Origin: Ianthella basta
Taxonomy: Eukaryota > Porifera > Demospongiae > Verongiida > Ianthellidae
Assembly (NCBI GenBank): GCA_964019415.1
Contig: OZ025868.1
Location: 4,746,371-4,810,370, forward strand
Length of the DNA stretch: 64,000 bases
Direction: 5' to 3'
Shown: in pieces, positions 8,942-51,267 of the stretch
Position numbering within the stretch: position 1 is the stretch's first letter
Layout of the letters: each line of letters opens with the position of its first letter
The notes under the pieces: model-generated
What the model was told of the DNA's origin: nothing
The model's input: only the letters and a program-made list of their open reading frames with translations
Database searches by the model: none
Program-made: the position numbers and the translations under genes

Positions 8942-10626
8942 TCAACTTGACACATTGATGTACTTGCTTTCTTGTGACTTGTAACTCATCTCAATGGGCA
9001 GGTAGGATGGGTTAGCCTGCATCTTCTCTCCCTCATCCTCCTCCCCCCTTGTTGGTGGCTCCTCCCCTTCTGGACCTGCTTTGACACTGTACCCTCCCCC
9101 TGCATGGAGGGAGGCAGCAGCCCTGCTTCACAGGAGGGACTGGGACAGCTGAGGGGTGCTGCACAACTCACCACCTCTCAGCTCAGCTCTGCACCTCTGT
9201 AGTCTCTTGTACATCACTGCATGCACCACTGCACTGACTGTGCAGGTGGACAGTGACAGTGTCAACACAAGAGACAGCAGGACTGACAGTACCGTCACTG
9301 TCACTACAGTTTGTGGGGATGTAATGTCAACATAATGTGAAAACGTGAAAAACATAATAATCATTTAATTATATAAATAAATAGCATTACTCATGTGCAT
9401 ATGCATGCAATTGCATAATTATAATACATCTCTGGAAAATACTCCATGCATACGTACCAGAAGCATATGATTGAACACTTGTAGGTGATAAGTAGATGAT
9501 AGAAGGTTCTAGATCTGGTGCTATTGCAGGATAATAATAGGTAGAGCAATAGAAATGTTATGAAATCAAATGCAACACATAACTGTCAATTTACCATTAA
9601 CCATCTCACCTGCAGGTGTTGTAGTGAAGTTCCCCATGACCTTTGCCCTCTGTCCGTCTGCTCCCTCTCCCTTCCTCACAGCCTCCACCTCAATCCTGTA
9701 AGTGCTGTTGGGTTGAAGGCAGGTTACAGTGTGGGAGGTGTCACTGTCAGCAGTTTGGGTGACATTGATGGAGCCATCTTGGGTGGAGTGGGACACAGTG
9801 AAGGAGTAGCACTTGGGGTAGCCAGCTGACCAGGTGACACTCAAAGTGGATGCTGTTCTGTTTGTAAGAATCAAAGCAGAGATGTCTACCTCAGCAGCTG
9901 AAGAAGAAAGGTAAATTAAGTGTTGCATGATCATGACTGTTCAAAGGGAAAAGTTGGTTGAGTAGCATAAATTTGTGAAATGGGTAAATACAGTCACGCT
10001 TACCAATGGAATGTATGCATTGTGTTTTTAAAACCCTTTACAACTTATTCCGCAGCATAAACACAGCTTCAGCACCATGAACACAAAAATGCTAACCAGC
10101 AGTGCATTTAGCTAGTTGGACTGATGACGGTAGCACTCACGCTCCTCCCGAGGGGTGTATAGATTGCTCTGTAGTCGTGATGCTTTAGTGAGAATAAGCA
10201 CACAGCGATACACTGTTGCCAAGTTGGTGTAGCTGTCCACCACTAGCTCCTGATAGGTAGTGGTGTGTGGAAGGACAGTGTGTCCAGGGTGGTCATGATC
10301 AGTTGAGGCAGATACTGTTTGACCGCCAAGAATCCACAACACAACCAGCACATTCTCCACACCATCATACTGACACCTGAGGGTGATGTTACCAGTTCTA
10401 CACACATAAGGGGCAACTGGGTGGGTCTGAGTGAGGACCACTGAACCTGCACAAGACACTGAATCAAGGCAGTTTGGATATAAACGTATGTATATAAACT
10501 TGGCAACATTATCAATAATTATAAGTATGTTCTAAATAGTGATCACTCAGTCTGCATGTACTGATTACCAACTGTTCCAGACAGTATCCAATACAGAACT
10601 GCAGCCAAATATCTGAAGAACTCCAT
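8942..10626 (-). CDS. Receptor gene 1: signal peptide, Ig-like, FN3, TM, tyrosine tail
   Basis: Five exons read by eye (5' to 3'): 10626-10569, 10446-10141, 9897-9610, 9303-9172 and 9099-8942, totalling 942 nt or 313 aa, with every internal junction in phase 1. Exon 1 encodes a leader beginning MEFFRYLAAVLYWILS. Exon 2 is an Ig-like domain with TLRCQYD, the core Trp of VLWILGG and TVYRC. Exon 3 is FN3-like (SVTWSAGYPKCYSFTVSHS, then TYRIEVEAVRKGEG). Exon 4 is a transmembrane helix followed by basic MYKRLQRCRAELR. Exon 5 is an acidic tail with NPSYLPIEM and a C-terminal SKYINV that fits the ITIM pattern (S/I/V/L)xYxx(I/V/L). The protein should be a type I plasma membrane receptor. Ligand and pathway are unknown. 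Gene 2 at 30740-33449 is a close paralog but has an extra stalk exon. Confidence 0.8.
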
Positions 10627-10639
10627 TCTTGTTGCAATT

Positions 10640-50300: not shown

Positions 50301-51267
50301 ACCTTTGAGTGACACAGTCATAGTGAAGTTGCCATCCATAACTGTTACACTTATATCGTGGATGTCAACTTCAGATTCATGGCGATTGTTCACAGAAAAA
50401 GGATCACCGTTATTGAACTGCACAGATATAACATCATCATTGGTGCACGCTGGGTGACTAGCATCCCAGACAATGGTGATTCGATGACATTGAGGCCTGG
50501 ATACTCTGCAGTTCCTGATGGATGTAGTTTCTAAAAAATGCAGAAATATAGTTTATCAACATTTGACAAAAGTGAAAGGGAAGCAATCTTAATTCCCGGA
50601 TCATATTTGCAGAGCATTGTAATTGCTCTAAAACGTCACTATGCTAAAATTGGCTACTAGAATAGACTTAGGGATGAACAAGTAATGGCAGTTAAAAACC
50701 TTCTCAGAAACCAAATTTAATACAAGCCAAACATTCACCACAATAATTTATCAATACATGATGCACAATAGCATTTATTTGTCATACTTGCTCTTTAGCA
50801 TATATGCTGTCCTGCATATATACAGTCCACCAGCAGAGCATGAATACACATAATAATAATAATAATAATAATAATAATAATAATAATAATAATAATAATA
50901 ATAATAATAATAATAATAATAATAATAATATACCTACAAACATTAACAATGGTATGCTGCAGCTTACCTTTTCTGATTGTTATGTTCACAGTGTCACTAT
51001 CTACGCTGGTATCTGTAGCTGCTGTACAGGAGTAGGCTCTTTTCAGGTACCTTGAATGCCTTACAGTCAGCGTGGATATACCTATGGCTAAATTGGTATC
51101 AATATCATGGCCTTCCTCATTTACAATGTTTATCACGTTGTCCAGTGGTGCACCCCACAAAATGAGAGTAACGCCTTGTGTGGAGTTGCAGGTAAGTTTG
51201 ACACTTGGACTAAGGCAGGTGTAGTTGACACCAACAGGATATGTCTTGCTGATGGATGTTGATGCAC
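47307..51267 (-). CDS. Receptor gene 4: Ig-like, FN3-like, TM, short tail (5' exon not found)
   Basis: Exons: 51267-50968 (Ig-like: VNYTCLSPSVKLTCNST, LILWGAP, RAYSCTAATD), 50530 to either 50303 (GTATTT donor, phase 1) or further to about 50262 (FN3-like: TIVWDASHPAC, VTVMDGNFTMTVSLKG), 47602-47495 (TM: NVVGSVVIVGTCSSAVAIIC then WKKYRKG) and 47362-47307 (tail GKNRSENLTTSSVQQEPH, stop). Every placed junction is phase 1. The Ig exon aligns with that of gene 3 from its first residues (GASTSISKTYP; STVKQVFP). The tail has no tyrosine. The signal-peptide exon must lie above 51267, but I could not find it. The intron before the TM exon is about 2.6-2.9 kb and full of repeats, and repeat R3 abuts the FN3-like exon. 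It may be functional or disrupted. Confidence 0.6.
47744..47941 (+). CDS. Unidentified short frame, weak
   Basis: Reads MLEPFSELSKSTDEVVSQVL and continues with heptad-like hydrophobic spacing to a stop at 47939. It could be an exon, but no clear acceptor or donor frames it and it lies upstream of the gene 4 TM exon on the opposite strand. No family recognised. Confidence 0.18.
   Translation: MPNHAIIGFLLFKRKMLEPFSELSKSTDEVVSQVLMINTSLQDMVRQFSLISNMIGTEYSKESQQ
48024..48140. repeat. Dispersed repeat R4, copy 1
   Basis: Resembles 51605-51720: both have catg(t/c)cagtt(c/g)aggg, then gggttggcc, then gcctgccctg or gctgccctgc and a cactgctctattgtctcc-like end. Confidence 0.45.
48580..48600. repeat. 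AAA-loop hairpin (aagcccgcc/ggcaggctt)
   Basis: Nine-base arms with one mismatch. It is followed by tcctgctag; the hairpin at 58624-58644 is followed by tcttgctag, so they belong to one family. Confidence 0.6.
49133..49340 (-). repeat. Dispersed repeat R2, copy 1
   Basis: The reverse complement recurs at 59285-59470. Shared words: tgaacattcacgggg/tgaacattcatgtgg, gttgctagcaa, gtagttcgag and a GC-rich end with ggcgcccca. The GC-rich end can fold. Confidence 0.65.
49636..49665. repeat. Perfect hairpin, 13-bp arms
   Basis: tatcagacgtcac and its reverse complement separated by atta. It lies between a degenerate cggtacgaggctac-type foldback end and repeat R3. Confidence 0.8.
49682..50250. repeat. 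Dispersed repeat R3, copy 2
   Basis: Partner of 15035-15615 in the same orientation. Its right end meets the 3' part of the gene 4 FN3-like exon at about 50250, so the open frame of that exon runs into repeat sequence. Confidence 0.75.
50851..50931. repeat. (AAT)27 microsatellite in gene 4
   Basis: A run of about 80 nt of AAT/ATT in the intron after the Ig exon. Open frames reading poly-Asn or poly-Ile across it are artefacts. Confidence 0.95.

Follow-up and report, generated by a model that had tools for sequence, protein, structure and literature searches.

The window analyzed here is a stretch of 64,000 nucleotides of the sponge Ianthella basta (C1:4746371-4810370, C1 being contig OZ025868.1). 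Between positions 8942 and 51267 of the window there are four receptor genes on the minus strand, which we name A, B, C and D by position. These two limits are the end of the gene A tail and the start of the immunoglobulin (Ig) exon of gene D. The genes span 8942-10626 (A), 12556-13407 (B), 30740-33268 (C) and 47307-51267 (D). They belong to a single-locus cluster of about 100 related receptor genes, which extends over nearly two million bases. The window takes in only a small part of this cluster, and the feature is far larger than 8942-51267.

The extent of the cluster was obtained from searches of the sponge's own genome, covering 209 Mb in 96 contigs. The transmembrane (TM) region of gene A gave 130 candidates, all of which were scored, and there were 128 matches, 126 on C1 and two on contig C35. 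When the Ig domain of gene A was the query, the best 150 of 204 candidates were scored; 147 are on C1, two on C35 and one, with a stop, on C2. For its fibronectin type III (FN3) domain, all of the best 150 of 250 candidates are on C1 or C35. Once pieces are merged, C1 has 125 TM loci and at least 142 Ig loci (3.72-5.65 Mb), and at 100 of the 125 TM loci a same-strand Ig exon lies 0.3-3 kb upstream. The TM loci span 3.72 to 5.65 Mb, the last being a degraded copy. Below 4.09 Mb they are dense, at a median spacing of 3.4 kb, those at 3.72-3.83 Mb being on the plus strand and those after them on the minus strand; in the remainder they are sparse (16.9 kb). The Ig domain of gene D, from a second subfamily, has 16 matches, 15 on C1 and one on C35. 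Internal stops are rare among the scored matches (7/128 for TM, 9/150 for Ig and 6/150 for FN3). Relatives of the family were not confirmed in viral contigs or in prokaryote genomes, each searched with one query.

The features of the four genes, in window coordinates, are as follows.

10569..10626, minus strand: gene A, predicted signal-peptide exon (MEFFRYLAAVLYWILSGTV); phase-1 donor, matches in five other sampled genes at 79-84% identity
10141..10446, minus strand: gene A, Ig exon; Ig_2 20.9 bits (cut-off 27), AlphaFold2 predicted local confidence (pLDDT) 67.6, PDB profile search
9610..9897, minus strand: gene A, FN3 exon; Pfam fn3 38.1 bits (cut-off 25)
9172..9303, minus strand: gene A, TM exon; 128 own-genome matches, on C1 or C35 only
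9100..9171, minus strand: gene A, intron 4 (72 bp), separating the TM and tail exons; near-invariant across paralogs
8942..9099, minus strand: gene A, cytoplasmic tail exon; tyrosines in SYLPIEM, SYKSQ and SKYINV
13090..13407, minus strand: gene B, Ig exon of the second subfamily
12720..12977, minus strand: gene B, weak FN3-like exon; its own model has no FN3 match
12556..12635, minus strand: gene B, last exon (FCSAFPGYHIWMPLATLMLMCFAYD*); hydrophobic end with no basic tail, like that of a glycosylphosphatidylinositol (GPI)-anchored protein
32966..33268, minus strand: gene C, Ig exon; 58% identity to the gene A Ig
32288..32590, minus strand: gene C, FN3 exon; Pfam fn3 41.8 bits (cut-off 25)
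30955..31089, minus strand: gene C, TM exon
30883..30954, minus strand: gene C, 72-bp intron 4
30740..30882, minus strand: gene C, tail exon; YLPIEM kept, final tyrosine motif absent
50968..51267, minus strand: gene D, Ig exon of the second subfamily
50303..50530, minus strand: gene D, FN3-like exon; assigned by position and a W...C motif only
47495..47602, minus strand: gene D, TM exon
47307..47362, minus strand: gene D, short tail exon; lacks tyrosine

All 12 introns that we placed (four in A, two in B, three in C and three in D) are GT-AG and in phase 1. This bears out an earlier note, made from the window sequence, which had described a cluster of Ig-FN3 membrane receptors with symmetrical phase-1 exons. 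Since these exons were placed by eye with phase 1 expected, and splicing is predicted, the independent check comes from the other family members. In the family, 130 of 146 GTRA donor-like sites within 13 nt of the exon ends that gene A predicts are in the phase-1 register, as are 339 of 440 AGs close to the predicted exon starts. A signal-peptide exon was not found for genes B, C and D, though the search was not thorough.

The domain layout in the earlier note stands, with qualifications. There are four genes, A and C have the full Ig, FN3, TM and tail order, and B has a hydrophobic end, but the FN3 assignments of B and D are below the Pfam cut-off or made by position only. The FN3 domains of A and C are above the Pfam fn3 cut-off, and those of B and D are not. 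Two relatives of the second exon of gene B are just under this cut-off (21.6 and 22.9 bits versus 25), and its profile match to the FN3 domains of A and C is weak (probability 47%). AlphaFold2 modeling of this exon gave no FN3 match, probably because the four-sequence alignment is poor. Since no basic residues follow its hydrophobic last exon, gene B is suggested to be GPI-anchored, so the cluster may hold both anchored and signalling forms. Away from the C1 cluster, C12:1687747-1708454 has a dense run of FN3 exons with the strongest fn3 matches in the genome. One FN3 match lies in what looked like a long open frame, which turned out to be unread sequence.

For the Ig domain, the hallmark residues C24, W37, Y79 and C81 are invariant in the 13 members aligned. 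Individual domains are all below the Pfam cut-offs, and 7 of the 13 match Ig_3 at E ≤0.1 (best 1.2e-5). The earlier note had proposed a structure-based domain search of the ectodomains as a check. A PDB profile search with the 13 members found Ig proteins, giving 127 distinct sequences at E ≤1, with contactin-2 as the best (E 1.5e-4). Apart from a few uninformative names, the first 60 of these are nearly all antibody, T-cell receptor, contactin, DSCAM, DCC, embigin and PD-L. Foldseek with the gene A model had no PDB match at E ≤0.001 (best 0.027), and Z was always below 8 in structure comparison, so the Ig fold rests on sequence and model jointly. Taken together, the B-strand Cys, C-strand Trp, strand F Y-x-C and predicted beta-sandwich assign these domains to the immunoglobulin superfamily.

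These fold neighbors bear on one explanation, in which combinations of paralogs would label cells within one animal in an adhesion or tissue-identity code, like the clustered protocadherins. Protocadherins use variable ectodomains on a shared cytoplasmic end, a logic which counts for such a code, and the nearest folds include those of the Ig-FN3 adhesion molecules contactin, IgLON and Dscam. However, each sponge protein has just two domains, and we consider this explanation very improbable.

The cytoplasmic tails were scanned with the consensus patterns of the immunoreceptor tyrosine-based inhibitory and activation motifs (ITIM and ITAM). The ITIM-like pattern [SIVLT]xYxx[VIL] is found in 29 of 36 unique tails, as is YINV, while YLPIE is found in 32 and an ITAM-like pair with a spacing of 6-12 in 30. 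By these patterns the tails carry a tyrosine motif of the ITIM/ITAM type, and phosphorylation is predicted. A second tyrosine block (YVNV, YVPxEM) follows the tail exon at C1:3760341-3765193, C1:3791286-3795771 and C1:3823579-3828201; therefore some tails are extended.

Across paralogs, no part of the gene is as conserved as intron 4, the 72 bp that separate the TM and tail exons. Its pairwise diversity is 0.020-0.022 (42 unique copies), versus 0.087 in the TM exon, 0.111 in the tail exon, 0.557 before the TM and 0.439 after the stop. Diversity is low from the middle of the TM across the intron and rises stepwise at the tail. In a DNA search with intron 4, the best 40 of 125 candidates are all in the cluster, and 24 are identical over 81 bases. 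An in-frame TGA lies inside the intron in 50 of 51 copies, and retention would end the protein early. We cannot explain this near-invariance, as neither a coding nor an RNA-structure explanation held. As a coding read-through or second frame, the intron has 12 nonsynonymous to 5 synonymous distinct changes, where 2.27 is the neutral ratio, and the tail is kept in copies that have 4 nt inserted past the stop. As an RNA structure, its z-score is +1.05.

The copy number could be partly an artefact of the assembly, in which retained haplotypes are counted as separate genes. Six pairs of stretches are 97.8-99.9% identical and placed far apart, several of them with one common offset near 979.6 kb, and some may be retained haplotypes. 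Over the six pairs, 10 of 1662 sites differ in Ig exons, 13 of 1653 in FN3 exons and 106 of 16080 outside exons. The Ig exon is identical in four pairs (0/1206 sites), and one pair has 9 differences in 297 sites. Contig C35 resembles C1 near 5.53 Mb, of which it may be an alternative haplotype. Here, the Ig protein is unchanged over 98 aligned residues, the upstream sequence is about 15-20% different, and one FN3 patch has 8 mismatches and a 6-nt gap. Against a general artefact, most sampled copies are far more different from each other (median variable-Ig DNA distance 0.285), and those in the array with 3.4-kb spacing are distinct. We thus regard a partial artefact as possible, though on the unlikely side.

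For comparison among copies, we took the top-scoring 30 of 150 Ig and 30 of 128 TM matches, which together with the window merge into 48 stretches. Since these are the best-scoring matches, the sample is biased towards the kin of gene A. The stretches contain 60 Ig exon matches, of which 44 are intact, 7 contain stops and 9 are cut or lack a splice site; the respective figures are 54 (41, 9 and 4) for FN3, 53 (49, 2 and 2) for TM and 51 (46, 4 and 1) for the tail. A length filter and removal of identical copies left a unique set of 40 Ig, 40 FN3, 39 TM and 36 tail exons. Among the sampled copies, Ig varies most, FN3 is intermediate and TM is almost invariant. The pooled ratio of nonsynonymous to synonymous diversity (pN/pS) in the unique set is 0.64 for Ig, 0.54 for FN3, 0.22 for TM and 0.61 for the tail, and omega, the corresponding ratio from a tree-based count, is 0.59, 0.52, 0.26 and 0.56. 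Synonymous diversity is arranged in blocks. Within Ig, the first 20 codons have values of 0.07-0.08, and codons 31-50 and 71-90 reach about 0.45; the FN3 core has 0.04 to 0.10 and the TM core 0.03-0.07. The variation of the Ig protein is concentrated on model strands C, C' and F plus the G region. Entropy in strands C, C' and F is 1.56, versus 0.35 in A, B, D and E (p 1e-5) or 0.54 in D and E alone (p 0.001). From the model, we infer a variable face on the Ig domain.

These numbers are also what might be expected if the family had expanded without selection, by tandem duplication and gene conversion under relaxed constraint, so that the variable Ig face would reflect age, not function. Omega is about 0.6 in Ig, FN3 and tail, and protein and synonymous diversity increase together. 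Such neglect is at odds with the few stops, with the conservation of the Cys, Trp, TM and tail motifs, and with omega below 1 wherever tested. We therefore find an unselected expansion improbable.

The distances among copies argue for a further property of the family. In a Mantel comparison of 24 genes whose Ig, FN3 and TM exons are all unique and intact (17 genes for the tail), distances are concordant within exons. Odd and even codons give r 0.90 in Ig, 0.67 in FN3 and 0.52 in TM (p ≤0.002), and the conserved Ig start and the variable Ig part give r 0.50. TM and tail distances are also concordant (r 0.52, p 0.005). In contrast, the variable Ig part is discordant with FN3 (r 0.10, p 0.26) and with TM (r -0.08, p 0.64), the range of these inter-exon values being -0.09 to 0.10. 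Therefore, the modules have been reassorted. The two halves of FN3 are also mutually discordant (r 0.14, p 0.19), so breaks fall inside FN3 too. Exchange of exon modules among paralogs, which the earlier note had read from gene structure, is thus supported by the copies themselves.

We suggest that the cluster is a germline repertoire of tyrosine-signalling receptors that recognise non-self, either microbial or conspecific, and we put the probability of this at roughly 0.55. The computed results that we count for it are the single locus, the few stops, the block-wise diversity, the reassortment and the tail motif, together with the exon structure in which they lie. From these we infer splicing, surface expression, a binding face, signalling and an immune purpose. 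The typical gene product would be a type I receptor with a signal peptide, one variable Ig, one FN3, a TM and a tail with conserved tyrosines, and side branches of the family would have a short or GPI-like end in place of the tyrosine tail. The membrane-distal Ig would bind the ligand through its variable face (C, C', F and G region). Binding would lead to phosphorylation of the tail tyrosines and recruitment of SH2 proteins. The repertoire would grow by tandem and segmental duplication, while unequal recombination or gene conversion would reassort the domain modules among paralogs, without loss of frame because the exons are in phase 1.

Several results weigh against this proposal. Omega is above 1 in no class tested, and the outward C/C'/F codons of Ig, chosen post hoc, give 0.89 (interval 0.67-1.26); positive selection on the Ig face, sought through pN/pS and omega, was not found. 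The variable face is also highest in synonymous change, so selection there cannot be claimed, and the pattern may in large part be old divergence beside homogenised blocks, without selection. The six near-identical pairs of this one assembly have no excess of Ig change. As to the exchange, the conserved Ig start is weakly concordant with FN3 (r 0.33, p 0.027), and so are the neighboring halves of the two exons, the last of Ig and the first of FN3 (r 0.27, p 0.028). In the approximately unbiased tree test each exon rejects the tree of the other. The trees of the odd/even-codon control within one exon were rejected as well, and we set this test aside as proof of exon exchange.

If the receptors recognise non-self, the target could be of two kinds. 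In an allorecognition complex, polymorphic Ig faces that bind homophilically or in pairs would decide fusion or rejection between sponges, as with Alr1/Alr2 of Hydractinia. Historecognition occurs in sponges, according to one source (PMC12018476), and the present genes have the anatomy expected of such a complex, being clustered Ig receptors whose tails carry tyrosines and whose Ig has a variable face. However, if the near-identical pairs are haplotypes, four of six share an identical Ig exon, the Ig protein of the C35/C1 pair is unchanged, and positive selection is not seen (omega <1). We consider an allorecognition complex unlikely. Alternatively, the genes could be innate microbe receptors, a birth-and-death repertoire with no role in graft rejection, like the large immune families of invertebrates. 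The large tandem array and paralogs that are more diverse than the near-identical copies point this way, though one Ig and one FN3 on a tyrosine tail is not known as a design for binding microbes. This we hold as a tentative possibility, and recognition of microbes fits as well as allorecognition does. A more specific form of the non-self repertoire, a sponge complex of the histocompatibility type, would combine about 1.9 Mb of variable-face Ig-FN3 genes, phase-1 exchange and signalling through a common tyrosine tail, and retention of intron 4 might supply a second tail that lacks tyrosine. We regard this form as doubtful.

Being compact and clear in its receptor design, such a locus would give a direct genetic handle on self/non-self recognition or the microbe response in sponges. 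In addition, the cluster is a natural case in which phase-1 exon exchange can be measured, beyond inference from gene structure.

Other features were seen around the genes and elsewhere in the assembly. Open frames of mobile elements lie between the receptor genes (window 17241-19993, 26202-27794, 41357-42964, 56053-56718 and 39380-39895). Among ten frames scanned, five match reverse transcriptase (one below cut-off), one match is to an endonuclease and one to DUF6570. Long simple repeats are found at window 31845-31980 and 50850-50930, one of them within a gene D intron. On contig C96, COX1 is readable with NCBI table 4 (9 TGA) and adjoins four tRNA genes predicted by ARAGORN (Arg, Asn, anticodon TCA and Lys). 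The presence of several mitochondrial tRNAs speaks against a cnidarian, and the COX1 protein resembles that of demosponges, so the sequence itself makes a sponge likely, as the earlier note had inferred. Silicatein was sought as a sponge marker, and no classical silicatein was present among the seven frames from eight small stretches; one set is without the active-site Cys. The stretch C6:3134170-3134720 has a cathepsin-L-like frame whose active-site region is without the catalytic Cys.

How does the cluster compare with known systems? In the literature searched, with most subscription papers and all preprints outside it, we found no clustered receptor family for sponge self/non-self recognition, so our claim of novelty is limited accordingly. 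The earlier candidates for cell recognition in sponges are the aggregation factor, the glyconectins and the Ig-bearing receptors of Geodia (PMC11999971, PMC12018476). As they are described in these sources, they differ from the present genes in that none is a clustered multigene Ig-FN3 family. Contactin, Dscam and IgLON are nearest in Ig fold by structure and profile searches, but these are long single genes, whereas the sponge genes encode two-domain receptors in a large array. The KIR/LILR-type receptors of vertebrates are clustered Ig receptors with ITIM/ITAM tails. The sponge cluster is similar in having a tandem array, a common tyrosine tail and short or GPI-like side branches; the domain make-up and the phylum are different, and we make no claim of homology.

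The ectodomains of Hydractinia Alr proteins are tandems of V-set/I-set Ig domains, according to PMC11999971. The sponge genes are different in that A and C have one Ig and one FN3 instead of tandem Igs, and the cluster has more copies and an almost invariant TM. In both animals, however, single-pass Ig-superfamily membrane receptors of low ectodomain identity are clustered in one genomic region. By this analogy, which is one of design, we suggest that the sponge cluster works like the Alr clusters of Hydractinia.

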